A DNA stretch of 44,791 nucleotides from Bacteroidia bacterium (GTDB lineage Bacteria; Bacteroidota; Bacteroidia; UKL13-3): contig JALONK010000025.1 of NCBI GenBank assembly GCA_025454975.1, forward strand, positions 1-44,791, in the 5' to 3' direction. The notes beneath the pieces are model-generated. The model saw nothing but the letters and a program-made list of their open reading frames with translations. It did no database searches and was not told the origin of the DNA. Shown here one piece after another: positions 5,905 to 36,072 of the stretch; positions within the stretch are counted from its first letter, which is position 1, and each line of letters begins with the position of its first letter. The translations under genes were made by a program, and so were the position numbers.

Positions 5905-8900
5905 TTAAAATAAATACCTGGCCTCCATTCTACCAATATGCACGGTGTCTTGGTTATCGGCATTTCTGCCATCATAGTTAATGGTAATTTGTAAGCTCTT
6001 TCCAATGCGTTGTTGGTAATTCACATTCCAAACCCTATTGGCTCCGGGTACTAATCCTTGCAAAATGTCGTATCCTAACTGACTTTGTGCATTACCATTA
6101 AATCGTATTTCGTAATAGCTAAACTTACCATTTAATACGCCTTGTTTAGCAACACTATATCTTAATTCGGTACCAAATTCGTTTGTAGTGCTAAATTGAT
6201 TACCTAATGCAGGAGCATTTTGTGCTTCAAAATAACTGTATAAAAATGTAATCCGCATTTGCGTAGATAACTGATAAATCACTTTCGGCTTATATTCTAT
6301 GAAGGTGTAATTAAAATTATTCTCTGAAAAAAAATCACTGGTTAACATTCGCACACCGGTGTTAATACCACCATTTATACTCCATATTGCATTAATGTTC
6401 CACCTTAAGTTTAACTGTTGTTCTGTTTTATTACGTGCATCAAAACCATTGGTTAAAAATATTTTGCTACGTTGGTTTTGATAAGTTAAATCGCCTCCAA
6501 AGGTTGGATTACTTCTGTTAAAAAATAAAGTATTTCTAAATACCGCATTTATGGTAATTAAGGAAGTATCATTAATATTAATCGTGAATGGATTTAAAAA
6601 ATCAAAGGTTTCCAAACGTGTTGTTTTTCTGTCGGTTTTAAAAGCTGTTTGATTGGTAAATTTACTTATGATTTTTCTTATACCTTTTTTATTATTCCAA
6701 ACCATTGCAGGATTAATTAATAAGGTTTGATTAAACTGATTGAGATGAGTTCCGATAAACGAATTGGTTGGCAAAAAAATTCTGATATAATTTGCTTGAG
6801 GTCTTTCAGCTGCCCCGGCAGGTAAAAATTCATTTAATTGTTGTATCCCATCATTATTAAAATCTTTCCAAACATATTGTCCTTGTCCAACTAATACTTC
6901 CACATATTGAAAATCTCTTCTCAGTTCTTGTCCCGAACCTATTTGATAATAAGTGTTAGCTGTGAATACCCTTTTTATAAAATGATAATCGTATTCAATT
7001 CTAGATAATAGTGTTCTTTCCGGTTGTGCTTTAATAATACCTGTGTCTTTTATATTAAAAGTACGCATGGTAAACCCTGCTGATAATCGGTTCCCATTTT
7101 TTTGCAGATGTTCGGCCGATGTAATTAAATTACGTCCAATAGTTGAAGTATTCAGTTCATTGTTTTTTGGTAAAAAGTCAGTGCGTTCTTGGTATTCCAT
7201 TTTAAACTTTGTTCGCGAGGTATCGTTATTTTTTACGAACGCTCCATATTGAATATACCCAAAACTTCCGCTTAGCAGGGTGTCTTGGTTGCGAAGAAAT
7301 GAACTTTGTTCCTGTTCAACTTTTAAACCGGCTAAAAAGCGATACAATTGTCGGTTTAACTCTATTTTATAGCGATTTACTTCACTTCGTTGTTCTTGAA
7401 TATTATTCGTTGTTCTTAGTAATTCTCCATCTCCTGAAATTTGGTATTTACCGCTTGTGAAAACAAATCCTGCTTGTTGTTGTGTACCGGTAAATGCCGA
7501 AGCGCGGTTATACCAACCCAACTGGTAATACAATTGTCCGTTTTTATAATGTTGAATAGCGGTTTTTAATGATGTGATATATTCTTTAAACCCGGTATCT
7601 ACAGGTACATTCGTGTTTGTTAACAAACGATTCCAATTTCTGTCGAACTCAACAGGCCGGTACCTTTCAATAAACCTGAAGTTGGCTTCGGTAAATTCAA
7701 ATTGAATTTCATTTTTCATTTGCCAAACTTTTATGTTACCATTTTTTAAAAGAGGTAACTGATATAACACTCCGGCTTTTATGGCAAATCCGCCATCATT
7801 TGCTTTATCTGTTGTAGCAAATGTGTTTTTATCTGTTATACTTCTAGCCAGTTCTAGTTGAATAGTTGTATTTTTAATGGCTGTAATTTCGGTTCCGATA
7901 CTTAGCATTTGGTTTCGTTTTGGACTAACCAATTGAATCACCGGTTCATGGTCGCCTTGAGGCACTCCATCTACCGGTGGTATCCAAATAAATACCCTTC
8001 CGTTAGCCGATGTATTACCTAGTTTATAATTACCTCTATTAGCTCCCACCAAACTAAATCTTACTTCATAAAAAATACTGTCGTTACCTTTTACAGGTGC
8101 ATGTACATATATGTTGTTAAATCCTAACGAATCAATTTTTCGGTATAAAATTCTTCGCGCATCAAACGTAGTTAACACTTCACTATTAATAAAAGCATCT
8201 TGCAGGTTATCACCAACAGCAGCTAAAATGCGCTTTGCCGAATCAGATAAATTTTGCAGGAATGGTTGATTTTTATTGTCTTGTTCGGTAAAATAGTTTA
8301 CCCTGATTTGATAACCTTTTTGTTCATAAATACTGTTTAGGTGAAATACACTTCTGGCATAATTTCTATCACTAAATTGAAATTCAACAACAATGCGGCT
8401 ATACTGTGTGATGGGTCGTCTTGGCATGAATGTAATTTCGCCGGTATTATAGTCAATCACATAATCGTTTTGTTCGCCACGTACCAATTTTTGTCCATCA
8501 ATATATACCGCTTCTGTACCCGAAATCACAATAATAAAAAGTTCCCCATTCGGTCCGCTTAACCTATAAGGTCCTTGATTTCCTTCAATACCATTAATAA
8601 TGTTTCTTGTAAAACGTCCGCGACTTAAAGCACCTTCTCCATTTATTTTTAACTTACCGTTTTTGCCAATGGGTGTTATTGTGTTTACTTGTGCTCCTCT
8701 TGATTTTTTATAATAATTCAAAAAGTAACTTCCTTCCGGTTTATTCATTTCAAAATCGCCAACTATTAATGTGGTATTTTTTTTACTTAACTGAATAAAT
8801 ACACGGTCAAAATCTTGCAGTTGTTGTGTATTACCTTCGGGTTGTATAGGGTTATTATCATCACTAATGGCTGCAACCACATCAATGTCGTTATTAATGG

Positions 8901-9396
8901 TTCCTGATAATTGAAGGTTTAAATTGGCATTTAATACTACATCCTGATTATTTCCAAAACCTAATCCTCGGCTAATTGAACCATTCATTTTAAGTCCATT
9001 GTCGGTAAATAAATTAAATCGGTTTTGAGATTTATCAGCACTATATCCTTGATCATATCTTATTCCTGAAACTTTAGGGATGATTAATGATTTAGGTTTT
9101 TTGGCGTAGGGAATATGTAATGGAATGCTCAGTTTATTATAGGTTACCAAAATGCTATCAGATCTATTAATAGATGTAAACAAGAGGTAACCGGTAAAAT
9201 AATTCATTTTAAAATCAATACCTTCTATTAATATTTTATTGTTCGTTTTCACTTGGATTAGTGGTTGAACTATGGTCATGGTATCAATTAAAATACTGTC
9301 ACCAACGTTTACAAACCAACGGTTATAATTGGATGATTGACTGTATGCCATCAAACACATAAAACTGAATGCAAAGGCAATCAGTAATGATTTCAT
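5905..9396 (-). CDS. Giant predicted outer-membrane beta-barrel protein
   Basis: A 1163-residue exported protein. A signal peptide (about 1-19, ending AYSQ) is followed by a region with IEGIDFKMNYFTGYLLF, then segments rich in strands, and a second copy of that motif type near 310-345 (DYVIDYNTGEITF). The C-terminal half has many alternating-residue strands and ends MEARYLF, a terminal Phe as in BAM-assembled barrels. No plug or TonB box typical of SusC proteins is visible. I recall similar large proteins as conserved but uncharacterised in Bacteroidota. Its ATG overlaps the stop of the kinase gene by 4 bases (ATGA), so translation is coupled to the kinase. Confidence 0.75.
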   Translation of the reverse strand: MKSLLIAFAFSFMCLMAYSQSSNYNRWFVNVGDSILIDTMTIVQPLIQVKTNNKILIEGIDFKMNYFTGYLLFTSINRSDSILVTYNKLSIPLHIPYAKKPKSLIIPKVSGIRYDQGYSADKSQNRFNLFTDNGLKMNGSISRGLGFGNNQDVVLNANLNLQLSGTINNDIDVVAAISDDNNPIQPEGNTQQLQDFDRVFIQLSKKNTTLIVGDFEMNKPEGSYFLNYYKKSRGAQVNTITPIGKNGKLKINGEGALSRGRFTRNIINGIEGNQGPYRLSGPNGELFIIVISGTEAVYIDGQKLVRGEQNDYVIDYNTGEITFMPRRPITQYSRIVVEFQFSDRNYARSVFHLNSIYEQKGYQIRVNYFTEQDNKNQPFLQNLSDSAKRILAAVGDNLQDAFINSEVLTTFDARRILYRKIDSLGFNNIYVHAPVKGNDSIFYEVRFSLVGANRGNYKLGNTSANGRVFIWIPPVDGVPQGDHEPVIQLVSPKRNQMLSIGTEITAIKNTTIQLELARSITDKNTFATTDKANDGGFAIKAGVLYQLPLLKNGNIKVWQMKNEIQFEFTEANFRFIERYRPVEFDRNWNRLLTNTNVPVDTGFKEYITSLKTAIQHYKNGQLYYQLGWYNRASAFTGTQQQAGFVFTSGKYQISGDGELLRTTNNIQEQRSEVNRYKIELNRQLYRFLAGLKVEQEQSSFLRNQDTLLSGSFGYIQYGAFVKNNDTSRTKFKMEYQERTDFLPKNNELNTSTIGRNLITSAEHLQKNGNRLSAGFTMRTFNIKDTGIIKAQPERTLLSRIEYDYHFIKRVFTANTYYQIGSGQELRRDFQYVEVLVGQGQYVWKDFNNDGIQQLNEFLPAGAAERPQANYIRIFLPTNSFIGTHLNQFNQTLLINPAMVWNNKKGIRKIISKFTNQTAFKTDRKTTRLETFDFLNPFTININDTSLITINAVFRNTLFFNRSNPTFGGDLTYQNQRSKIFLTNGFDARNKTEQQLNLRWNINAIWSINGGINTGVRMLTSDFFSENNFNYTFIEYKPKVIYQLSTQMRITFLYSYFEAQNAPALGNQFSTTNEFGTELRYSVAKQGVLNGKFSYYEIRFNGNAQSQLGYDILQGLVPGANRVWNVNYQQRIGKSLQITINYDGRNADNQDTVHIGRMEARYLF

Positions 9397-12300
9397 GAAG
9401 GATTTATTTTAGGTAATGAAATACAAAATTCGGTGCCTTCACCTTCTTTGGTAACAAATGTTATAGTACCTCCGCCGCTTTCAATCATATTTTTTACGAT
9501 TGGCAGTCCTAGGCCCATACCCGATATTTTAGTACTAAAATATGGTACGAATATTTTATCTGTTTGTTCTTGAGTCATCCCTGTACCGTTATCACTAACG
9601 TAAACACGGATGAAATCATTGCCTTCAACCACTTCAATTTTTATTACACCGGTTTCATTATCGGGTATTGCCTGTATGGCATTTTTTATGAGGTTAGAAA
9701 CAGCTCGGTTAAAATAACCAGGGTCGAATTGAATATACGACTCGTGGTGACATTTAAGTATTATTTGGTTAGAAGTACCTTGAGAATATAAATCAACTAA
9801 TTGTGACAATGTTTTTTTTACATCAATTAATTCATAACTGGGAGCAGGCATTTTAGCAAACGACGAAAATTCATTTGCCAATTCACTTAGTACATCAATT
9901 TGAGCAATCAATAATTCAGAAGTTCGTTTGATTTTATCACCAATGTTTTGATCATTATTTGCGAACGCACGCTGCAAGTGCTGAATGCTAAGTTTCATTG
10001 GTGTAAGTGGATTTTTTATTTCATGTGCTATTTGACGGGCAATTTCGCGCCAAGCACCTTGTCGTTCAGTTTCGGCTAATTTTCTGGCACTTTCATCCAA
10101 TTGTAAAATCATACTATTATACTGCTTAACCAATTCGCCTATTTCATCATCACGTTGCCATAAAATAGGTTCGTTTAATTGGCCTAAGGTTGTTTTTGAT
10201 AAACGTTGTTGAATTAAGGTTAACGGGAAGGATATGTTTCTCGAAACCCAATAAGCAATCATCACAATGATGATAAACAATAACACATATAAGTTTATAA
10301 ATCCAATAACAACTGAAGATATTTCACTTAATAAATCAACTTGTTTACTGAAATATGGTAATTGTAAATAGCCTGATACTTCATTTCTTGAATTAAACAC
10401 CGGTGCATAAGCTGCTTGAAACAGTAAGGAACCTATTTTTTCATTCTGACTATACTGAGATTCTCTTAATTGATGTAAATGAAAGTAGGCAAGGGGATGC
10501 ATTTTTATTGAAATGATATGTTCGTCATATAACTTATCAATACTGCTGGCTACCACTTCTCCTTTTGCATTATACAAGGTTATATCGGTATCATAAAAAT
10601 CTGCTATTTGGTTTATAAAAGCTTCTACTTCTGCCGGCGAAAATTGCTCGCGTGTGGTGATGCGCTCGTTTTCAACATTGATAACAATGTTTCTTAACTT
10701 TTTAATCAACCTGTCGGTTTGCCTCACATTATATTTATCTATGGTAAACTTAATAGTAAAATAAGAGCTGAATACTAAGGTTGTAAATACGATAAAAACA
10801 ATAGATGCTTGAATTCGTGTTCTGATTAATATGATGGTGTTTTCTTCCATCAATAACAGTTTTAATAAGTTTTTTCGTATCCAATTCACTAAAGGATTTT
10901 CAACAATAGCCAATCGTTTAATGCCTTGTGCATTTAAGAGCATAAACAACACCAATATAAGGATTAATAAAACTGTACAACAGGTGAAAATAAAGGAAAA
11001 TAGCCCAATTACTTGACTAATACTATTAGCAGGTTTACTCACCACAACAGTTAATGGCTGGTAGTCGGTATATAACAAATGAGTAAATCCATTCTCTTCA
11101 AAAAAACGAAAATCGTGGTCGGTTTCACCCCAAATATTAATTATACTGTAGGCGTAATCACCACTTTGGTAAACCAATTTTTTATCTTTATAAACTGCAT
11201 AAGAATATTCGCTGATGCGCGGACGAATAGCGGTATTTCCTTCAACTAAAATTTCATCAAATCTGTTTTCATTTTGAATTAACTTAGGCTTAAGTAAAAC
11301 AAATAAATAACCAATGCGTTGCTTACCGGTTCTGATAATATATTTTCCTATATACCCTTTAATATTTCCTGAACTTTGCATGTATCTGAACGAACCTGCA
11401 AATGATTCGCTTCTTTGCTGTTCGTAAATTGCATTAGCTTGACGAAAAGTGAGTTCGTTTTTTTCTTTGAAATGATTACCTGCGGTATCATAATCCAACA
11501 GTTGTACATCAAACTTACTTAGGTAACCCGTAAAATATAATTGTCGAATTTGCTTTTCAAATTGGGGTTTAATGATAAAAGGACTTTGGAAATATTCATT
11601 TATATAATCATCCTGTTTCAGTTTTTTATCAATTCTACGAAGAAAATAATCGTTGGTAATATCAGTTTGTGAAATTTGTTTCACTGCAAATAGTTTTCGG
11701 TTATCTTTTTCTCTCACGTTTTGCCAATGCCAAATGCTGATGGCGCTGTAGGTAGATATAATTACAATAACAAAGAAATACTGTTGAAAGCGGTTTAGTC
11801 TTGGTGTGATTAGTTTAAATGCAACAAAGGTGAGAATCAAAATCATAACCGACCAGTACCTCAAAATGTCGTGTTCAAAGATCTTGTTGGCTATTAATAA
11901 ATAAACTAAAGCTAGTATAGTACTTATGGCTACTATTAGCTGTTTCTTTTGTTTGGATGATAAAATGGCACGCGTAAAGTTACGGGCGATAAAATACACC
12001 ACCAATAATTGAATGATACAAACAGCAATAGCAAAATAGGTGAAAATATTAATGGAATAAATTTGGTTAATATCGAATGAAATTTGAGAATCAATTGTTA
12101 AACTTTTTATGGAACTAAACACTGCATTTCCCGCAAACAAACTTAAAAATCCATATAAAATAAGTTCGGCAATACTGCTATTTCCCTTTTTTATCCTTGG
12201 ATGGTTTTTACGGCTTTCAAGTAAAATGAAATACCATAATACAATAGCACTGTCTACCAATAAATCTCCTAAGCTTGGAAACCAAATTGAAGATGCATAA

Positions 12301-13115
12301 ACACCTGCACTAAATAATTTATTACTGTAAATAAAGTGAGGGATATTATAAAACGTATTTATCCAACGCACCCAAACAAAAATGGCAAAAAACAAGGTGG
12401 TAGTTAATACAGGATAATTTCTAATGTAATAACGTATTAATACATGGGCAAGCAATAAAGCATAAAACAATAAGGCAAACATTACCCATTGCAGTATGCG
12501 AGCAGTAATTTTATTAGTGCTAAAAATTTGTACTGAGCATAAATAACTTCCATCTACCGACTGAATATCTATGTACTTATCATTAATACGTTTATTAACT
12601 ATGATAGCATCTTGAAGAAACTGTAGTTCGCTGTTAAATACATGTTGAAGGTATTGATTTCGGTAGGCGAAATTGTTTTTTAGTTTATAAATGAAGTCAT
12701 ATTGAAATGAACCACGCTTGTTACGATATACTATATACCACCCATTATCTCCTTTTATACAAGCGTGTCTAGTATTTGATTTTAATTTTAGTTGTTTAAG
12801 ATCAACTTCATTGGTGCTCCAAAATAGCAGGGTGTCATTTTTAGTGATAAATACATTAGCGTTTTCTTCGTGCAATTTTTTATAAATGGCATTCCAATTT
12901 CTATTGATATTGTTGGTGTCATTCAGTAAATCTGATTGAATAAGTTCAATAAAAGCAAGTTCTTTCGCCCTTACAACATCTTGCACTTGTTGATAGGCAA
13001 GTTTTAATTGCGTTGTAGAGTTACGAATGGTTTTTTGCTCATAGAAGCTTAACACCATTAACGCAAGGCATCCGGTGGCAAATAAAATCCAATATAATTT
13101 TATGCCTTTTTTCAA
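9393..13115 (-). CDS. Very large membrane sensor histidine kinase (NtrY-like)
   Basis: A 1240-residue histidine kinase. An N-terminal helix (about 8-25) and an extracytoplasmic stretch to about 205 are followed by a bundle of roughly eight membrane helices (about 207-460), a second extracytoplasmic part, and further helices near 720, 790 and 950. Next come a HAMP domain (VSRNISFPLTLIQQRL, QRDDEIGELVKQYNSM) and HisKA with phospho-acceptor His1031 in IAHEIKNPLTPMKLSIQHL, the pattern of NtrY kinases. The ATPase domain has the N box NLIKNAIQA (Asn1145), DNGTGM (Asp1175) and GMGLGLPIV. No cognate regulator lies beside it. It follows hldD by 6 bases and overlaps the barrel gene by 4, which points to an envelope-related signal. 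The eight-helix sensor module is not one I recognise. Confidence 0.9.
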   Translation of the reverse strand: MKKGIKLYWILFATGCLALMVLSFYEQKTIRNSTTQLKLAYQQVQDVVRAKELAFIELIQSDLLNDTNNINRNWNAIYKKLHEENANVFITKNDTLLFWSTNEVDLKQLKLKSNTRHACIKGDNGWYIVYRNKRGSFQYDFIYKLKNNFAYRNQYLQHVFNSELQFLQDAIIVNKRINDKYIDIQSVDGSYLCSVQIFSTNKITARILQWVMFALLFYALLLAHVLIRYYIRNYPVLTTTLFFAIFVWVRWINTFYNIPHFIYSNKLFSAGVYASSIWFPSLGDLLVDSAIVLWYFILLESRKNHPRIKKGNSSIAELILYGFLSLFAGNAVFSSIKSLTIDSQISFDINQIYSINIFTYFAIAVCIIQLLVVYFIARNFTRAILSSKQKKQLIVAISTILALVYLLIANKIFEHDILRYWSVMILILTFVAFKLITPRLNRFQQYFFVIVIISTYSAISIWHWQNVREKDNRKLFAVKQISQTDITNDYFLRRIDKKLKQDDYINEYFQSPFIIKPQFEKQIRQLYFTGYLSKFDVQLLDYDTAGNHFKEKNELTFRQANAIYEQQRSESFAGSFRYMQSSGNIKGYIGKYIIRTGKQRIGYLFVLLKPKLIQNENRFDEILVEGNTAIRPRISEYSYAVYKDKKLVYQSGDYAYSIINIWGETDHDFRFFEENGFTHLLYTDYQPLTVVVSKPANSISQVIGLFSFIFTCCTVLLILILVLFMLLNAQGIKRLAIVENPLVNWIRKNLLKLLLMEENTIILIRTRIQASIVFIVFTTLVFSSYFTIKFTIDKYNVRQTDRLIKKLRNIVINVENERITTREQFSPAEVEAFINQIADFYDTDITLYNAKGEVVASSIDKLYDEHIISIKMHPLAYFHLHQLRESQYSQNEKIGSLLFQAAYAPVFNSRNEVSGYLQLPYFSKQVDLLSEISSVVIGFINLYVLLFIIIVMIAYWVSRNISFPLTLIQQRLSKTTLGQLNEPILWQRDDEIGELVKQYNSMILQLDESARKLAETERQGAWREIARQIAHEIKNPLTPMKLSIQHLQRAFANNDQNIGDKIKRTSELLIAQIDVLSELANEFSSFAKMPAPSYELIDVKKTLSQLVDLYSQGTSNQIILKCHHESYIQFDPGYFNRAVSNLIKNAIQAIPDNETGVIKIEVVEGNDFIRVYVSDNGTGMTQEQTDKIFVPYFSTKISGMGLGLPIVKNMIESGGGTITFVTKEGEGTEFCISLPKINPS

Positions 13116-27254: not shown

Positions 27255-29954
27255 TTAGCGGAAAATTCCTTTCAGTTTCTTTTTAGCTTCCTCTTCAAGG
27301 GCTTTTTTCTGTTTTTCTTTTTCTTCTTGTGCTTTACGTTCTAGTTCTTTTTTCTGTTTTTCAGCTTCGGCTTTTGCCTTATCGCTTTCCTCTTTTAGGC
27401 GTTGTTTCGCTTTTTCACTTTCTTCCTTTAGTTTAGCCTCAGCTTTTACCATTTCTTCTTTTGCCTTTGCTTCTAAAGCCTTTTTTTGTTTATCTAATTC
27501 ATCCAGGGCTTGTTGTTTGAGGTTGGTAGCCTCGTTTTTCGCAAGTGCCGCTAAGTTTGTGGTGATTTTCGGTTCGCTAAAGGTTCCATTAATACCTAAT
27601 GCAAGGTTAACGGTGGATGATGTAGATAGATTTGTTCCGGTTTGTTTATTTAGTTGTCCGAGTGCTTGTTGAAGGCCAGCATTAACAGCACCTAAGGATG
27701 CGGTTGGTATCGCAGTAGTTCCTTTGTAATCTATTGTTTGGTCAATTCCTGTTGTTCCTGATAGATTTAAACTTTGTCCGCCTGCGTTAACCGTAAAAGG
27801 TTGAGTGGTAATTTTACCATTTTCAACTGCAAATTGGATATTAACGTTTTTTAAACCTACACTTTTATATTTATCATTTTTTAAGGTGGATGCCAGTAGA
27901 TCAAATAGTTTAACATTAGTTATTGCGGCATCAGGAATTATTAGGTTTCCGGTGGCATATACTTGATTTAATATTGGGTTAAGGTGCTTATCTGTTGGAG
28001 CCTTCATACTAAAAGATGTAGAAAATTTACCTTCCATATTTTCGGCTATTGGAGCTAGGTTTTTAATGGTATTAAAAGTATTAAATGCGGTTTTGAAATC
28101 AAGATTTTTAATATCTAAATCAAGTGCAATAGTAGGTTTCAAAAGATTAGAAGTTTCATACGTACAATTCATATTAAACAATGCACCTAAGGCTTCCATA
28201 CCTACTTGTTTTAACATTAATTTTTGATCCGCAATTTGCACAGTACCTTTAAACTGCTTAATGTCTAAATTTGTGTATTGAATATTGTTGATTTTGCTGT
28301 TAAGTGTGAAGTTAATATTAGCAGGAATTTCAGGGGCAATAATTGTTGCTGTATCAGTTGAAGACGCAGTAGTTGTGGTGTCGGGTGCACCAATCAAACT
28401 ATTTAAATCTAAATTATTAGAACTAAAGTTCAATTTCCCTTGAATTACACCTTTCCCAAACATATAGGCAAAAAAGTTACCCAATTCCCCATTCATTTTC
28501 ATGTCGGATTTACCTATTGTTGCATCAAAATTATTAAGCGAAACCAGACGTGGGGTAAATGAAAGTTTAGCGTCGTATACTTTAATTCCATCAGTTAGTT
28601 CAGGAGATTTAAAACTTAACTGTTGCATAACCAATTCGCCTGATGCATTAAATGCTTCATAGTTTTGTTTTTCAAGCGTAGATACAGTTCCTTTAGCTTT
28701 AATATCAGAAGTTATTAAACCACTTAATTGGATTCCATCCTCCATTGGTACAATTTTCCCTATATGGTCTAAATTAATTCTTCCCAATAAAGTAGCGTCC
28801 ATAAATGGGTCGTTCATTAAATTGTTTGCCAATAAGGTAGCTTCAAACGCATCACCGCCAACATTTGCGTGCAACTTGCTCAGGTTAATTTCAGTGCTAT
28901 TTAATTGTCCATCCTTATTGTTTACACCTAATTTTACTTGTACATCTTTAACAGCCATTGGAAGATTTGGATAACTGAACATAGCATTATTAATTTCTAC
29001 ATTTAAAGCAAATGCCGGTAGCGATTGTTCATTATATGTACCTTTTGCAAAACCATTAAACCCAAGGGTTCCTGCTGTTTTTACCTGTTCAAAATCTTTT
29101 TGATAAATTCCGGGAATCAAGGATAGGAAGTCTTTAAATGTAGCTTTTGCTGCATTGTATTTAATATCCATGTCAATATCATTACCTTTTAATTGAATAA
29201 ACCCTTCAAAAGCAAATTTCAAGGCATTTAACCCAATTTCATTATCCTTAAACGTAAACAATTGTTGCTTCATGTCCATATCAATATCAGCTTTTATTTG
29301 GGTGTTCACTTTATTAATAAAGGTAATGCCCCCCATTTTATACTGTAATGATTGAACACTGCTAATAATATTTAACATAAATTCATCCTGACTGAAGTCG
29401 CCACTCATGTTATAATTAAATTGTTCTAGTTTGGTAAATATGCCACTTACCTTATCGTCATAAACAATATTGGCATTATTGATTGTAAGCCGTTTTAATT
29501 TTAGATGAAAAGATGTGGAGGCTGTATCGGTAGTGGTAGTGGTGGTATCAACCGAAGGTTTGGTGATATTCCAATTAGCTGTACCATTGGCAAGCATGAG
29601 GGCGTGAATTCGAGCATCATCTAAGGTTATACTTCTGATGTCAAATGTTTCACCTTTAATCACACTCATGATGTCGAGCGATACAGATAGTTTTTTCCAA
29701 CTAATCAAAGTATCACCTTCAAAGTCATTAACACCGGCAACGTACACATCTTTAAGTGCAACGCCTAAGTTGGGAAAACTACGGATAATGCTGATTTCAA
29801 TATCAGGGTTATATCCGATTTTAGCATTTAAGTTTTTGTTGATTTCATTGTTAATACCGGCAATGATTTTATCCTTAAACAGGAAAGGCACAGCAACAAT
29901 AATCAATAACAATAAGCCAATAATGGATGCAGTAACAATCAAGAAACGTTTCAT
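27255..29954 (-). CDS. AsmA-family protein with a charged C-terminal helix
   Basis: An 899-residue AsmA-like protein. An N-terminal membrane anchor (FLIVTASIIGLLLLIIVAVPFLF) is followed by the AsmA N-terminal signature (ISIIRSFPNLGVALKDVYV) and a long series of beta strands to about 800, with Thr-rich linkers near 140 and 540. The AsmA C-terminal region has DLLASTLKNDKY and the repeated 'LNLSGTTGIDQTIDYKG' type. The last roughly 85 residues are a Lys/Glu/Ala-rich helix. AsmA-family proteins are thought to help lipids cross the periplasm and affect outer-membrane assembly. It is followed by the azurin-like gene. Confidence 0.88.
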   Translation of the reverse strand: MKRFLIVTASIIGLLLLIIVAVPFLFKDKIIAGINNEINKNLNAKIGYNPDIEISIIRSFPNLGVALKDVYVAGVNDFEGDTLISWKKLSVSLDIMSVIKGETFDIRSITLDDARIHALMLANGTANWNITKPSVDTTTTTTDTASTSFHLKLKRLTINNANIVYDDKVSGIFTKLEQFNYNMSGDFSQDEFMLNIISSVQSLQYKMGGITFINKVNTQIKADIDMDMKQQLFTFKDNEIGLNALKFAFEGFIQLKGNDIDMDIKYNAAKATFKDFLSLIPGIYQKDFEQVKTAGTLGFNGFAKGTYNEQSLPAFALNVEINNAMFSYPNLPMAVKDVQVKLGVNNKDGQLNSTEINLSKLHANVGGDAFEATLLANNLMNDPFMDATLLGRINLDHIGKIVPMEDGIQLSGLITSDIKAKGTVSTLEKQNYEAFNASGELVMQQLSFKSPELTDGIKVYDAKLSFTPRLVSLNNFDATIGKSDMKMNGELGNFFAYMFGKGVIQGKLNFSSNNLDLNSLIGAPDTTTTASSTDTATIIAPEIPANINFTLNSKINNIQYTNLDIKQFKGTVQIADQKLMLKQVGMEALGALFNMNCTYETSNLLKPTIALDLDIKNLDFKTAFNTFNTIKNLAPIAENMEGKFSTSFSMKAPTDKHLNPILNQVYATGNLIIPDAAITNVKLFDLLASTLKNDKYKSVGLKNVNIQFAVENGKITTQPFTVNAGGQSLNLSGTTGIDQTIDYKGTTAIPTASLGAVNAGLQQALGQLNKQTGTNLSTSSTVNLALGINGTFSEPKITTNLAALAKNEATNLKQQALDELDKQKKALEAKAKEEMVKAEAKLKEESEKAKQRLKEESDKAKAEAEKQKKELERKAQEEKEKQKKALEEEAKKKLKGIFR

Positions 29955-29959
29955 AGTTT

Positions 29960-29990
29960 CAAAGTTATAAGTATTTAATTAATAGTGAAA
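29960..29990 (-). promoter_or_regulatory. Possible promoter of the AsmA-family gene
   Basis: On the minus strand TAACTTTG (29960-29967) fits TAnnTTTG, with a weak TTTC 19 bases upstream (29987-29990). The box ends 5 bases before the ATG at 29954, so the transcript would be almost leaderless. Confidence 0.35.
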
Positions 29991-30003: not shown

Positions 30004-30396
30004 TTAAGCAGGTAAATTTTTTATGATACCGGCCACTACTTCCGAGGTAAAAGGTTTATTTAAGAAGGATTTTATGCTTGGATACTTTTGAGCTCTTAAT
30101 CTATCTATATCATTTGATGAGGAGGTAAGAAACATGCAATGAAATAATTTTTTAGTTTTAGCGGGCAACGCTTCAAATTCATCCATAAATTGAAAACCAT
30201 TCATAACCGGCATTTGTATATCCACAAGCATAATTACTTTTTGTTTCGGCTTGTATGTTTTAATAAAAGCCAAAGCGTCGGTTCCGCTTTGGAATTGATG
30301 GATATCGCCGTGTTCAATATGGCTCATTTCAATTGCTTTGAATGCCACTAAAAGGTCAATTTTATTATCATCAATTATTATAAAGTGATATGCCAT
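30004..30396 (-). CDS. Single-domain response regulator
   Basis: A 130-residue stand-alone receiver domain (CheY-like). It has the acidic pair Asp9/Asp10, the phospho-acceptor Asp59 in LVDIQMP, Thr91/Ser92 and Lys114 in LNKPF. There is no output domain. It is the last gene of the ThiF operon; its ATG overlaps the stop of the REC-kinase gene by one base (TAATG), so translation is coupled. It may be a phosphate sink, a relay to a kinase or an allosteric partner. Confidence 0.93.
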   Translation of the reverse strand: MAYHFIIIDDNKIDLLVAFKAIEMSHIEHGDIHQFQSGTDALAFIKTYKPKQKVIMLVDIQMPVMNGFQFMDEFEALPAKTKKLFHCMFLTSSSNDIDRLRAQKYPSIKSFLNKPFTSEVVAGIIKNLPA

Positions 30397-31496
30397 TATT
30401 TACAAGGTAGATTTACAGTAAAAGTACTTCCTGAATTAAGTTTTGATTCTACATTTATTTTTCCTCCAAGGGTGGTTACAATTTCTTTAACATTATATAA
30501 TCCAAATCCGCTTCCACTAACTTCAGTTGTTGCACGGAAGAATAGTTCAAATATATTTTGTAAATATTCATCAGGAATGCCCATACCGTTATCTTTCACG
30601 TGGATGATTAAGTTTTCATCAATTACACGCATTTGCACATCAACATATTTATTTACTTCACCTGCACGTTGGTATTTCAGTGCATTAGAAACTAAATTAT
30701 TAATAACTACTTTCAATTTTGTAACATCAGTACGGAAAAATTCGGTAGTGTTTTCGCAGTTAATGGTAAGGCTTATATTTTGTTGGTGACAGGTAATGCC
30801 GTGTATGGATAATAATTCAGATTTTAGGTCTTCCAGGTTTACAGGTTCAATTTTTAATTCGCCTCTGTTATTGCGATAATAAACATGCATGTTTTCGATA
30901 AACTCATTTAAATGAACTGCCGCTTTTTCAATGAGTTCGAGCATTAAGGATACATTTTTTTGATTTTTGTCAGGACTATTATTCACAATATTTATGGCAC
31001 CCATAATACTCATTAAAGGACCTTTTAAATCGTGTGAAACGCTATATGCAAAACCATCTAATGCATTATATGCTCGAGTAAGTTCAGTAACCTTTGATTC
31101 CAGTTGGTGTGATTGGGTATAATATCTATAGGCCTCTTCTATTGAACTTCTAATCTCAGCTTCGTTCCAAGGTTTATTAATATAACGAAATACATGACCG
31201 AGGTTGATGGCTTTTATTACAGACTCAATATCTGTGTATCCGGTAACTAAAATTCGGATGGGTTTTGGATGTTTTTTTAGGATAGATGAAAAAAACTCAA
31301 CACCTGTTTTTCCCGGCATCCTTTGGTCGCACAATATCAAATCAACTTCATTTTGTTCAAGCCAAGTTTCTGCTTCCGATGCTGACTGGGCTACTGTTAT
31401 ATCATAATCAAACCTAAATGCGGCTTTGAACGCATGAAGGTTATTGATTTCATCATCAACAAAAAGAATACGTATTTTTTTTAATGGGTTACTCAT
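30396..31496 (-). CDS. Receiver-histidine kinase fusion
   Basis: A 366-residue cytoplasmic protein with an N-terminal receiver domain and a C-terminal histidine kinase. The receiver has Asp57 (CDQRMP), Thr85 and Lys108 in NKPW, the RpfG/HupR-like type. The kinase has His155 in SHDLKGPLMS, Asn271 in NNLVSNALK, DNGMG (Asp302) and SGSGFGLYNV. There is no membrane segment. The order REC then HK suggests the receiver controls the kinase, so it can act downstream of the membrane kinase encoded one base upstream. The receiver closely resembles the one at 35599. Confidence 0.93.
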   Translation of the reverse strand: MSNPLKKIRILFVDDEINNLHAFKAAFRFDYDITVAQSASEAETWLEQNEVDLILCDQRMPGKTGVEFFSSILKKHPKPIRILVTGYTDIESVIKAINLGHVFRYINKPWNEAEIRSSIEEAYRYYTQSHQLESKVTELTRAYNALDGFAYSVSHDLKGPLMSIMGAINIVNNSPDKNQKNVSLMLELIEKAAVHLNEFIENMHVYYRNNRGELKIEPVNLEDLKSELLSIHGITCHQQNISLTINCENTTEFFRTDVTKLKVVINNLVSNALKYQRAGEVNKYVDVQMRVIDENLIIHVKDNGMGIPDEYLQNIFELFFRATTEVSGSGFGLYNVKEIVTTLGGKINVESKLNSGSTFTVNLPCK

Positions 31497-31497
31497 C

Positions 31498-33633
31498 TTA
31501 TCTTTTCTTAGGTATGGTTATGGTAAATGTTGTTCCTTCACCAATGGCTGTTTTCACTGTAATATTTCCATGATGTTTTTTAATGGTGTTGTACACAATT
31601 GATAAACCAAGACCGGTACCTTCTCCAACCGGTTTGGTGGTGAAGAATGGTTCAAATAATTTGTTTTTAGTAGTTTCGCTCATTCCGGTTCCATTATCTC
31701 CGATTTCAATTATAATAGAATCAGTTGACTCCTGCGTTGTAATTTTAACCAAGCCCCCTTCTTCCTCGTTAAATCGTTGTTTTACGGCATAAATAGCATT
31801 ACTGATAAGGTTTAAAAATACCTGATTCAATTTCCCGGGGTAACATTCAACCAATGGAATATTACCATAATTTCGTTGTACTTCAATTTTATTGTTCAAC
31901 TGATTATTTATAATAATTATGGTTGATTCTAAACCTTCATTTACATCTGCCAATTTAATATCGTCTTCATCCACACGAGAAAATATACGTAAGCCTTTTA
32001 CAATTTCAGCGGTTCTGGATGATCCTTCATGAATACCTTTCAATAAATAATTGATTTCAGTTTTAAGGTAATCATAATCAATTTCCTTTTTTAATTGCTC
32101 AATTTCATCAAGGTTTAACTTTCCATCTTTAGCTAATGCCTCAGTTTTTTCTTGTAAATGATACAGTTCATGTATATCGCGCTGCAAAGGTTTAACATTA
32201 GATGTTACAAAGTTAATAGGGTTATTAATTTCATGTGCAATTCCTGCAGTTAATTGACCTAAAGATGCCATTTTTTCTGATTCAACCAACTGTGTTTGTG
32301 CTTGTTTTAAATCAGCCAACGCTACTGTTAAACTTTCATTGGAAGATATGAGTTCTTTCGTACGTTCTTTCACTTTTTGTTCTAATAACACATTTTGTTC
32401 ACGGGTAATCTTAGCATTTTCCTGCGCAACCATCAACGCTTCTGCCTGTGCAATATCTTTATCTTTTTTTAGAGAGTTAATTTTATCAGCAAGTGCAAAC
32501 GAAAGTAAGGTTACTTCTAATGCCGAACCATATAATAAGATATACCTTGTGAAATCATTATAAGGTACAACCCCGTAATCTTTAAGAACAAATACGATTA
32601 CACTTGCAAGGAATAATGACCAAGCTATCAAGAAAAATCGAGCAGAACGATTTCCTTTGGTAGAAATAAATGCTGCGATTATTAATACAATGATGGAGCC
32701 TAATCCTGCATTAATATTAATAAGTGTATAGCTCAGTTGAAACCATTTGAAAGGTAATACAGAAATTGCTAAAATATCAATACCAACAAAGGCGATTAGA
32801 ATATAATTAACTTTACCAATGTATTTTCTTGTTTCAATAAAGGTTATAAAAAATAGTAAGGTAAAGATTCCGGACGCAGCTCCAAATATGTAAAGTGAAT
32901 ATACTTTTAACCAGCTAAACTGTGCGGGTAAATACCTGTTAAAGAATCCATGTAAGGTAATTTGGGTTAATGCCACAAACAGAATAAACAAAACATATAT
33001 CAGGTAACTTTTTTCTTTTGTATTAACATAAATAAACAAGTTATACAAAAACATAACCAGCATAATGCCTAAGTAAAAATAAACAGCATTATCTCTTTTT
33101 GTATTTTTGATTTTGATATTTTCAAATGTTGTTATTTCAATGGGTATTAATAGTTGTTCGCCCGACTTAACCCTTAGATAAACTGTGCTGTTACTATGTT
33201 TCGGTAACAAGGTGAAAACATAATTTTGATCCGGATAGTTTCTAAGTTCAACCGGCTGTGTTTCGTCAATTCTAATGCTGTCGAATCCTAACCCATTTGG
33301 TGTGTATAAGGTAATGTTATCAATTGTAGGATTTGAAATTTGAAGTGCAAGTGGTTCTTTTATCGAATCCTTAATATTTATTTTTACAAATAGCGGGTAT
33401 CGGCTCCCTTCTTGGCTTATTACTTTATTTTCGTTCTCAATCTTTATGTTACAAGATTGTTTTATAGCTTGTTGAAAGTATCTTACATCAGGGTTAATTT
33501 CACACACTTCAACTGTATAATTTATGGCATCTCGACGTTGTGCATTGGCTTTATTATCAAAAGCAAGAAGCCACAAACAACATAACAGGTTAAATAAAAC
33601 TAAGTTTCTGCGTGTGCTTTTTAATATTATCAT
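31498..33633 (-). CDS. 7TMR-DISM sensor histidine kinase
   Basis: A 711-residue membrane kinase. A signal peptide is followed by an extracellular 7TMR-DISMED2-type beta domain (about 35-175), then seven helices (about 185-385; [18 protein letters not shown] is the first), a coiled coil (about 390-450) and the kinase core. His467 lies in [13 protein letters not shown], the N box in [11 protein letters not shown] (Asn612), DNGTGM (Asp646) and [12 protein letters not shown]. 7TMR-DISM proteins are thought to sense small extracellular ligands, often carbohydrates. The ATG lies 44 bases inside the GNAT-like gene, and the next gene starts 1 base after its stop. Confidence 0.92.
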
Positions 33634-34399
33634 ATTGACTTTGGGAGGTTTTTATCGTATCTGCTAAGCTCCAACTTGATAAGTTTGGAATTCTTGTTTC
33701 GTAGTGAATTTCGATTTCTTTTTTTCTTAATACTTCTGTTTTTACAATGTCGGGGTTATTTCGTAATGTTTGAATTGCTTTTTTATCATCTTCTTCTGCG
33801 AGTTCCAGTTTGTTAACATCTTTGAGAATCATAGAGGTGGCTACCAAATCTAATTTAGGATAATAAAAAGTACCAACATTACCTACGCTCGTTTCAATTT
33901 CGTATCCTACTTGTTGGGCCATACTAACAGTATATGGTGCACATAATGCAAAGAGTGACTGTAAACCAATTTGACTTGAAATTGCTACTGCTGCCCGAGT
34001 TAAAAAAATACTACCAATTCCATATCCTGCAATCTCACGTGAATTCCATAATCCACAAATTTCTCCGGTACCATGTAAAGCGTATTTTTTTACCAAAGCA
34101 TAGATGCGTTCATCTAATGCTGCAGTTGCCTCCTCAATAGGCAAAAATTGGGAGCCACCTGAAACGTGAACTCTAGCTCCTCCATAAACAACTGATTTAT
34201 CAAGCGATTCAACAATCAATACAAACGCAGCAGGATTATTCATCCATTCATGTTTAGATGAAGTGACCTTTGTTATACCGATACTTGTTAATACCCTTGT
34301 ATGTCCTTCAATAAATAACTCGCATGAATGCTGATCATCAACAGCACGAAAAGCTCTGAGTCGAACAACAGGTTTGTCTTTATTTAGTTCGGTAGTCAT
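33590..34399 (-). CDS. GNAT-fold, autoinducer-synthase-like protein
   Basis: A 269-residue cytoplasmic protein. The central part looks like a GNAT acyltransferase of the LuxI/FeeM-like kind: VVRLRAFRAVDD at the start, FVLIVESLDKSVVYGGARVHV (strand pair), GEICGLWNSREIAGYGIGS (113-130, conserved acid then the acyl-CoA loop) and helix IFLTRAAVAISSQIGLQSLFAL, then MAQQVGYEIETSVG. These follow the order of N-acyl amino acid and acyl-homoserine-lactone synthases, but with no clear motif identity. The last 70 residues are charged and helical. Its ATG overlaps the ThiF stop by one base. The function is inferred from shape only. Confidence 0.65.
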   Translation of the reverse strand: MTTELNKDKPVVRLRAFRAVDDQHSCELFIEGHTRVLTSIGITKVTSSKHEWMNNPAAFVLIVESLDKSVVYGGARVHVSGGSQFLPIEEATAALDERIYALVKKYALHGTGEICGLWNSREIAGYGIGSIFLTRAAVAISSQIGLQSLFALCAPYTVSMAQQVGYEIETSVGNVGTFYYPKLDLVATSMILKDVNKLELAEEDDKKAIQTLRNNPDIVKTEVLRKKEIEIHYETRIPNLSSWSLADTIKTSQSQYDNIKKHTQKLSFI

Positions 34400-35499
34400 T
34401 ATTTTATCAACTCAAGTGTGTCTATATAAAATCTTCCCGAGGGTAATGGTTGATCAAGTAATATTCTTCTACAGCAATCAGTGCAAGTACCTGCACCCAA
34501 CATTACCGATGATGCCAACTGTGGCCATGTAGTAATGCTTTTGCCAATTTCCATCATCGAATCTTTTAAACGGTCCGAAGTTTCTTTAAAGTTAACTAGT
34601 TTAAGTATAGTTTCTATGCGCTGTTCCGGAGTGAATTGTTCACACAAGTATATCTCTTCTTCCGAAAGCAGACCATGCATTATTGGTCTCTTTGGCTCTA
34701 AATCGAAACGTTCGATGTCAATCATACCCCTATCATTGGTGTCCATAACTACTGGAATTTTTAATTCCTTGGCTTTAACCCTACTTTTTAACTTTATTGA
34801 TAATCCGTCACAAACTTCAACTAACAAATCTAATTTGTGAAAAAAGTTATCCAAGTTATCTGTGGTTAGTCCATTTTCAAATACTTCTACCTCAATATAT
34901 GGGTCAATTTCAGCAATCTCTCTTGCTGCTAAAATAACTTTATGAGTTCCTAAATGTTGGATACCTGCCCTTAGTCTATTTAAGTTACTAAGTTCAAGCT
35001 GGTCAAAATCCGCAATTTTTATTTTACCACAAAGCCTTTCCATTACTAATGTTATGGCTACTGACTGACCAACTGATAACCCTACTACACCAATGCATTT
35101 TGTACTTAACTTTTCTTGCTCATCTTTGGTAATTTTAAGTTTGTTTCTATTTGTTCTTACTTCAATAAACTCATCTTCTTTTAACGTGTGCACTAAGGTT
35201 TGCAACCAGGGATAATAAATCCAGTTACCATAGAAGTCGGTTTGGCGACCTTCCAACTTTTCAACTACCTTACTAATTAAGGCTTGTTCATCGAGCCTTA
35301 ACGATGGAAAACGACATTTGATTAACTCCCTTATCTGAAGAGTTATTGTGTCTTGTACACGTATGTGTCTATTTTTTTGTAAATATCCTCTAAATAGCTT
35401 TAAATCGGCATCTGTATTGACGTTGAAGATTAATGGTTCAATTGCTTTCTGGTTATTATCTTCATCATACTCCACAAAATAGTCAAGTGATGTTTTCAT
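34399..35499 (-). CDS. ThiF/E1-like adenylating protein (Rv1355c-like)
   Basis: A 366-residue protein. An N-terminal helical region (about 1-130) is followed by a ThiF/MoeB/E1-type Rossmann domain: glycine loop GVVGLSVGQS (137-146), ADFDQLELSNLNR (Asp164, Asp166, Asn174, Arg175), Lys187 in GTHKVILA, and Asp231 in VEVCDGL. These residues bind and adenylate a C-terminal carboxylate with ATP. The wording LSVGQSVAITLVMERLCG and RFDLEPKRPIMHGLL matches, from memory, the Rv1355c/MoeY-like branch, whose members often carry a nitroreductase domain that is missing here. There is no CxxC zinc pair or E1 catalytic Cys in the usual place, but Cys339, Cys342 and Cys343 lie near the end. It is the first gene of the operon. 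Confidence 0.85.
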   Translation of the reverse strand: MKTSLDYFVEYDEDNNQKAIEPLIFNVNTDADLKLFRGYLQKNRHIRVQDTITLQIRELIKCRFPSLRLDEQALISKVVEKLEGRQTDFYGNWIYYPWLQTLVHTLKEDEFIEVRTNRNKLKITKDEQEKLSTKCIGVVGLSVGQSVAITLVMERLCGKIKIADFDQLELSNLNRLRAGIQHLGTHKVILAAREIAEIDPYIEVEVFENGLTTDNLDNFFHKLDLLVEVCDGLSIKLKSRVKAKELKIPVVMDTNDRGMIDIERFDLEPKRPIMHGLLSEEEIYLCEQFTPEQRIETILKLVNFKETSDRLKDSMMEIGKSITTWPQLASSVMLGAGTCTDCCRRILLDQPLPSGRFYIDTLELIK

Positions 35500-35598
35500 C
35501 TATTTTTGTAATTTTTAAGAATTAATTTAACTTCGATACGGTTTAACAATAATACGATAAAATTTTAGATACTCCCATACCCAAAATTTACAATTGCT

Positions 35599-36072
35599 GT
35601 GACAGAAACTAAAGAAAAAATTAAAGTAATTTATGTAGATGATGAGGAAAATAATTTATTCTCCTTCAAGGCTACTTTTCGCATGAAATATGAGGTGCAT
35701 ACAGCCATTAGCGCATCTGATGCGATTACGTTATTAGACCAACATCCTGATATTGCCATCATCATAACTGATCAACGCATGCCGAACATGACAGGTGTTG
35801 AGTTTCTGGCTTCTATCATTGATAAACATTCGCTTCCAATGCGTATTTTGTTAACCGGATACACTGATATTAATGCGCTAATAGAAGCAGTAAATTTGGG
35901 TAAAATTCATTACTACCTGAGCAAGCCTTGGAGTGAAGAAGAGTTAGACAAAACTATACAAGAAGCTTATGTTCAGTATAAAAAACGAATAGAGGAAATT
36001 GAACTAACCGATAAATTATCTCGTAGCAACGATCAGTTGGAGTTTTTACTTCGTCAAAAATTATTATCTTAA
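35599..36072 (+). CDS. Single-domain response regulator, RpfG-type receiver
   Basis: A 157-residue receiver domain with a short C-terminal coiled helix (IEEIELTDKLSRSNDQLEFL). It has Asp58 in TDQRMP, Thr86 and Lys109 in LSKPW. It is divergent from the ThiF operon across 99 bases and is clearly paralogous to the receiver of the REC-kinase in that operon (shared FVDDE/YVDDE, KATFR/KAAFR, DQRMP, GVEF, LTGYTDI and KPW). The only plausible start is a GTG at 35599. No DNA-binding or enzymatic output follows. The stop overlaps the convergent Smr gene by 4 bases. Confidence 0.92.
   Translation: MTETKEKIKVIYVDDEENNLFSFKATFRMKYEVHTAISASDAITLLDQHPDIAIIITDQRMPNMTGVEFLASIIDKHSLPMRILLTGYTDINALIEAVNLGKIHYYLSKPWSEEELDKTIQEAYVQYKKRIEEIELTDKLSRSNDQLEFLLRQKLLS

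Follow-up and report, generated by a model that had tools for sequence, protein, structure and literature searches.

The locus described here, six neighbouring genes in a 44,791-nucleotide stretch of DNA from Bacteroidia bacterium (Bacteroidota, UKL13-3; NCBI GenBank assembly GCA_025454975.1, contig JALONK010000025.1; hereafter the window), raises the question of whether genes that make a small acyl-type molecule and genes that detect it form a single signalling module. Five of the genes lie on the minus strand and encode a ThiF-fold protein, a GNAT-like protein, a 7TMR-DISM sensor histidine kinase, a REC-HisKA-HATPase hybrid (REC-HK) and a stand-alone receiver (REC1), and a further stand-alone receiver (the orphan receiver) is encoded divergently (Table 1). 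A preliminary description, made from the sequence alone, had proposed that the first two proteins make or modify an acyl- or aminoacyl-type molecule which the kinase senses. The analysis reported here narrows that molecule to an N-acyl oxazolone (or, in some relatives, an N-acyl amino ester), leaves the chances about even that the locus both makes and detects an acyl signal of this kind, with the 7TMR-DISM kinase as its reader, and finds the predicted synthesis half of the module well supported by protein family and fold. The question has some weight since those who characterised bacterial oxazolones describe the physiological role of these compounds as "a major unresolved question" and point out that they resemble acyl-homoserine lactones (AHLs) (PMC12856293).

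The architecture given in the preliminary description was recovered in full, with six open reading frames, one-base TAATG overlaps at 34399 (ThiF/GNAT) and 30396 (REC-HK/REC1), a 44-base overlap between the GNAT and kinase genes (33590-33633) and a one-base gap between the kinase and REC-HK genes (31497). Its domain calls agree with a Pfam scan of the set (ThiF, 1.9e-20; 7TMR-DISMED2, 6.7e-13; 7TMR-DISM_7TM, 7e-45; HisKA and HATPase_c, twice; receiver domains, three times), and the same scan found no DNA-binding domain encoded in the six genes, as had been noted.

That these genes belong together is practically certain. When GTDB genomes were scanned with the GNAT-like protein (for reasons given below, the predicted synthase), 72 loci were returned, all from Bacteroidota, of which 53 have enough flanking DNA to be read; among these well-flanked loci the kinase, REC-HK and the orphan receiver each occur in all but one (52), ThiF in 44 and REC1 in 36. 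No flanking gene recurs across families in these 53 loci, recurrent flanks being a matter of synteny within a genus. In Sphingobacteriaceae the order is rearranged, with the GNAT gene first and the orphan receiver at the 3' end and convergent, and membership is kept. A separate sample of 296 Bacteroidota genomes was searched with the kinase type defined at E<=1e-100: 12 genomes have the synthase and precisely these 12 also have the kinase type, the two genes invariably sharing a contig and lying within 3.3 kb of each other, with no kinase of this type in the remaining 284 (Fisher value 1e-21, ignoring relatedness; the 12 genomes span 10 genera); ThiF adjoins the synthase in 11 of the 12 and the orphan receiver does so in 10. 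A profile search for the synthase covered 395 Bacteroidia genomes and matched 76 of them, in 44 of 196 genera; the kinase adjoins the synthase in 39 of the 40 that were read with their flanks. Synthase and ThiF occur without the kinase in the one exception (locus L211) and in Pedobacter Leaf216 (L082), and since both keep the enzymes, the kinase appears to depend on the synthase and not the reverse. Variants of the cassette were also seen: L210 (G639:C55) carries two tandem synthase paralogues (6526-7976) between a ThiF-flavin-oxidase fusion (ThiF-FDO) and the kinase, which could give two products for one sensor, and L213 (G586:C3) has two tandem divergent orphan receivers.

The identity of the ThiF protein is what narrows the predicted product. 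The window protein matches the NCBIfam model PRK07877 ("Rv1355c family") with 448 bits (E 3.9e-134) over profile positions 4-339 of 722, as compared with 72 bits for the next-best ThiF family; with half of the model unrepresented in the window protein, its score stays under the curated whole-protein cut-off (476), which full-length ThiF-FDO relatives in the same cassette exceed (737 bits). Residues D164, D166, N172, N174, R175, K187 and C230-D231, among them those of the ThiF nucleotide site, are invariant in an alignment that runs from Bacteroidota to actinobacterial TrzS-type proteins. By sequence, then, this is the cyclase half of the Rv1355c/TrzS family and no generic ThiF. Rv1355c is TrzS, whose ThiF half was shown in 2025 to cyclise N-acyl-tryptophan with ATP and whose flavin-oxidase half then desaturates the ring with O2 to give N-acyl tryptazolone, an oxazolone; the GNAT-like partner of TrzS, TrzA, is the N-acyltransferase (PMC12856293). 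D231 of the window protein is probably the equivalent of D217, which was tested in TrzS. Because the protein falls in this family, the "acyl- or aminoacyl-type molecule" of the preliminary description can be specified further as an oxazolone formed by ring closure of an N-acyl amino acid, and we regard it as likely that the window ThiF is a cyclase of this kind. A reading of ThiF as an E1-type enzyme of ubiquitin-like conjugation was rejected since partner genes are missing; no ubiquitin-like protein, E2 or JAB peptidase was found by Pfam among the six genes and three flanking genes scanned, and no such partner recurs in related loci.

The GNAT-like protein has no Pfam or NCBIfam match, neither it nor any of 44 homologues matches the LuxI/FeeM families of Pfam, and a search of PDB sequences with its profile returned no match. 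An AlphaFold2 (AF2) model built from the 44 homologues (pLDDT 91) has a GNAT fold of the FeeM/AHL-synthase type, and the nearest structures are the N-acyl amino-acid synthase FeeM (2g0b, Z 16.1), the CoA-dependent AHL synthase BjaI (5w8g, Z 15.7) and LasI (1ro5, Z 15.0), which share with it the fold and the position of the catalytic core at 9-12% identity; other GNAT proteins reach nearly equal Z values over shorter lengths. A GEICGLWN motif is invariant in the alignment of the 44 homologues. For TyzA, which has been shown to carry out N-acylation in the tyrazolone pathway, the closest homologues reported are again FeeM and BjaI (PMC10404671). We consider it highly likely that the window protein is an N-acyl amino-acid synthase. 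An independent coupling of the two predicted activities is seen on Streptomyces plasmid NZ_CP109497.1 (L108, 5179-8093), where, judged by sequence, an acyltransferase-like domain with weak similarity to FeeM is fused to an Rv1355c-type ThiF domain 46% identical to that of the window; the fusion gene is followed there by a gene for a beta-ketoacyl-acyl carrier protein (ACP) synthase III.

Two features of the locus that the preliminary description overlooked, the missing flavin-oxidase half and the replaceability of ThiF, bear on the nature of the product. A fused, Acg-like flavin oxidase is found in most relatives, and a flavin oxidase is present in 33 of the 53 well-flanked loci, its loss or splitting off requiring 10 changes on the synthase tree; none is present in the window cassette, and the best match in the window's own genome (98% complete) has an E value of 0.06. 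Since TrzS cyclises before it desaturates (PMC12856293) and no flavin oxidase was found here, a saturated oxazolone would be expected, and the window locus is no full member of the OxzAB/TyzACB/TrzAS group, matching its first two steps only. Depending on the relative, the ThiF slot holds a ThiF-FDO, ThiF alone (as in the window), a class I S-adenosylmethionine (SAM) methyltransferase or an ICMT-type carboxyl methyltransferase. The class I enzyme, distantly related to UbiE, LahSB and the carboxyl methyltransferase BioC among others, replaces ThiF in 10 of the 72 loci (8 of the 53 with good flanks) and never occurs together with it; mapped onto the synthase tree, the exchange takes 4 changes, at least 2 of which are forced by the starred branches. 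Enzymes of the ICMT family methylate the carboxylate of a lipidated cysteine; a member sits between synthase and kinase in L007 (G126, 824-1465; E 1.5e-19 in Pfam, 98 bits in NCBIfam), and another occupies the slot in L212. The presence of three unrelated protein families in one slot suggests one role, and the simplest candidate is that the enzyme masks the carboxylate left free on an N-acyl amino acid, either by closing a ring or by forming a methyl ester. The masked product would be neutral and lipophilic, like an AHL; loci of the methyltransferase type probably make a methyl ester.

With regard to detection, the AF2 model of kinase residues 1-390 (pLDDT 90) places a RetS-like DISMED2 ectodomain above seven helices, and the nearest structure is the RetS periplasmic domain (3jyb); a ligand could, by this prediction, bind at the ectodomain or in the seven-transmembrane (7TM) bundle. 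A weak Foldseek likeness of the 7TM part to Wntless and G protein-coupled receptors was not used. Kinase H467 is invariant in 61 homologues, and D57 and H155 of REC-HK are invariant in 57; overall, neither the Asp and Lys residues of the receivers nor the His residues of the kinases are lost, and they hardly vary over 42-61 homologues, with a D-to-E change at D9 of REC1 in 4 of 42 homologues as the sole exception. With these catalytic residues intact, the relay should be active. The divergent receiver, which the preliminary description had rightly taken for a paralogue, finds its best match within its own genome in the receiver of REC-HK (47%), and its C-terminal tail (NeQLEFLLRQkLLS), strongly conserved in 60 homologues, is a candidate contact for output. 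Among relatives, REC-HK gains a PAS domain in some (e.g., L204 and L209), and in L176, L181, L187 and L192 a kinase of another type, REC-PAS-HisKA_3, sits in its place.

From the gene set, its conservation, the protein families, the synthase fold and the synthase/kinase co-occurrence, which are directly established, we infer the exact product, its sensing by the kinase and the output as follows. The GNAT-fold enzyme would move an acyl group from acyl-CoA (or acyl-ACP) onto the amino group of an amino acid, and the ThiF-fold enzyme would use ATP to adenylate the free carboxylate and then carry out ring closure, giving a saturated N-acyl oxazolone (azlactone). A fused flavin oxidase would desaturate the ring in most relatives, and in some a methyltransferase would act in place of ThiF; in each case the acyl amino acid derivative would be neutral and lipophilic, much as an AHL is. 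Sensing of this product, through the ectodomain or the 7TM bundle, would fall to the neighbouring 7TMR-DISM kinase, which would phosphorylate the two stand-alone receivers and the receiver of REC-HK and so pass the signal to an output whose genes lie elsewhere. For the homologues OxzAB, TyzACB and TrzAS, all three reactions (N-acylation, ATP-dependent cyclisation and desaturation) have been demonstrated. Both checks proposed with the preliminary description came out in its favour, the gene set being conserved across many Bacteroidota families and the FeeM/LuxI-type match appearing at the level of structure; its interpretation is supported, signal production by the enzyme families and the fold, and detection by the kinase is what we still infer. 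Synteny and the co-occurrence in the 296 genomes argue for sensing of the product by the kinase, which on this basis we hold to be an evenly poised proposition.

Several observations weigh against a synthase-receptor module of this kind. In profile-profile comparison (hhalign), the synthase and actinobacterial TrzA-like proteins show no significant similarity (E 0.016, probability 3%), so that the link to the known synthases rests on fold, gene position and partner; an hmmsearch among a very small set of TrzS-linked actinobacterial neighbours ranked the two TrzA-like proteins highest, but at E about 0.2, and this ranking was not taken as proof. The zero count of kinases without synthase hinges on the E<=1e-100 threshold. 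One locus (L182, G306:C3) has synthase, kinase and receivers but neither ThiF nor a methyltransferase, and its product may be a plain N-acyl amino acid; another (L059) has no tailoring enzyme in the gap. Once the other genes of the cassette are allowed for, distances of the synthase showed no significant correlation with those of the sensor, ectodomain or 7TM region (partial Mantel -0.07 and 0.06), a null result that neither supports nor excludes a ligand-receptor pairing. Known oxazolones are found mainly in cells and less in supernatants, and they are readily hydrolysed (PMC12856293), which is awkward for a diffusible signal. Finally, a kinase beside biosynthesis genes may equally be a regulator of them.

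This last possibility is the main rival. Two-component genes near biosynthetic clusters are commonly regulators, and here they might control or gate the biosynthesis, with the kinase sensing an outside cue (for example a compound made by a competitor, or stress from antibiotics or at the membrane). The oxazolone would then serve as an effector lipid or an antimicrobial. The null co-evolution signal fits such an arrangement, as do reports that oxazolones are induced by antibiotics in proteobacteria and that N-acyl tyrosines are antimicrobial (PMC12856293). The cassette carries no transcription factor, however, and hence no direct local control of the operon, and the product-defining enzymes (ThiF, ThiF-FDO and the methyltransferases) vary freely while the kinase is kept; on balance we consider this reading rather unlikely. 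It is more doubtful still that ThiF adenylates the carboxylate of a peptide, a siderophore precursor or a protein and the GNAT protein acylates it, to yield a product other than an N-acyl oxazolone. ThiF/E1 folds do activate many carboxylates (PMC10404671), the flavin-oxidase half is missing from the window, the synthase lacks a sequence match to TrzA, and Stieleria N-acyl dehydrotyrosines are made with a ThiF gene without an oxazolone having been observed (PMC12479983); yet the Rv1355c/TrzS assignment is specific, in the window protein as in its ThiF-FDO relatives, the GNAT fold is of the FeeM/AHL-synthase type, and the set has no ubiquitin-like protein, E2 or peptidase. That the genes are fortuitous neighbours of unrelated function, adjacent by descent, has a negligible probability in view of the co-occurrence data, for even though the wider neighbourhood is also kept within single genera (e.g., the Algoriphagus set), the cassette is found in many families between other flanking genes, changes its order and not its membership in Sphingobacteriaceae, and shows correlated presence and absence across a patchy distribution.

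Several known systems resemble the cassette in part. TrzAS/TyzACB of Mycobacterium tuberculosis and OxzAB of Pseudoalteromonas rubra likewise set a GNAT-fold acyltransferase beside a ThiF-type cyclase; the window differs from them in its missing flavin oxidase and in an acyltransferase unlike TrzA-like proteins in sequence, and the cassette at large adds a dedicated kinase and receivers and allows methyltransferases to replace ThiF. The quorum-sensing pairs LuxM-LuxN, AinS-AinR and CqsA-CqsS each combine the synthase of a small acyl-type signal with a membrane histidine kinase that feeds a phosphorelay, but with synthases of another fold or family and with other sensors, the window having a 7TMR-DISM kinase and a predicted oxazolone instead of an AHL or alpha-hydroxyketone. 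RetS and other 7TMR-DISM kinases share the DISMED2 ectodomain and 7TM-DISM region with the window kinase, which stands apart in being encoded in an operon with its own putative ligand synthase and in belonging to a subfamily found only with the synthase in the 296-genome sample. Outside Bacteroidota, two Rhodococcus plasmid loci (L111 and L115) have an Rv1355c-type gene by a TrzA-like gene and a GGDEF gene. Genes for cyclic di-GMP adjoin trzAS and are the only signalling genes mentioned in the oxazolone papers (PMC12856293), and no earlier description of the module with its kinase was found in the open-access literature searched.

We tentatively propose, at slightly less than even confidence, that the cassette represents a widespread form of Bacteroidota cell-cell signalling, in which an interchangeable carboxylate-masking enzyme makes the signal and a dedicated 7TMR-DISM kinase perceives it. 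The signal would be an N-acyl oxazolone in some lineages and the methyl ester of an N-acyl amino acid in others. If true, this would provide Bacteroidota with an acyl-type autoinducer system, an equivalent of AHL quorum sensing built from other parts, and would give a physiological role to oxazolones, an orphan compound class; the replaceable masking enzyme (cyclase or methyltransferase) would also suggest a chemical rule for the ligand of the receptor. By tying an oxazolone-type pathway to a dedicated receptor kinase, the module makes the signalling idea directly testable in genera that can be cultured, Mucilaginibacter, Parapedobacter and Algoriphagus among them.

Table 1. Features of the cassette, with window coordinates, strand and the evidence for each assignment
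Feature	Position	Strand	Evidence
ThiF-fold adenylating cyclase, predicted (oxzB/trzS-like cyclase half, without flavin-oxidase half)	34399-35499	-	PRK07877, Pfam ThiF, invariant residues
GNAT-fold acyltransferase, predicted N-acyl amino-acid synthase	33590-34399	-	AF2 model, nearest structures, 44-homologue alignment
7TMR-DISM sensor histidine kinase (DISMED2 ectodomain, 7TM, HisKA, HATPase_c), predicted receptor	31498-33633	-	Pfam, AF2 model
REC-HisKA-HATPase hybrid (REC-HK), putative relay kinase	30396-31496	-	Pfam, D57 and H155 conservation
Stand-alone receiver REC1, CheY-like	30004-30396	-	Pfam Response_reg 9.9e-11
Divergent stand-alone (orphan) receiver, conserved C-terminal tail	35599-36072	+	Pfam Response_reg 7.9e-18
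99-bp divergent promoter region between ThiF and orphan receiver genes	35500-35598		Sequence

The Bacteroidota-type promoter TTG-N17-21-TAnnTTTG has no match in the 99-bp divergent region of the window, nor upstream of the operon in any of 35 loci. Opposite-strand open reading frames at 29638-29970, 30385-30789 and 34481-34840 were dismissed as shadow frames. Elsewhere in the window, at 5905-13115, a 1163-aa protein without any Pfam match is directly followed by a 1240-aa histidine kinase that has no Pfam match over its first thousand residues. On the downstream side of the cassette (27255-29954) lies the gene for an AsmA-like protein of 899 aa with a long, charged, Lys/Glu-rich C-terminal helix; an AsmA gene also adjoins the cassette in the nearest relative, L015.

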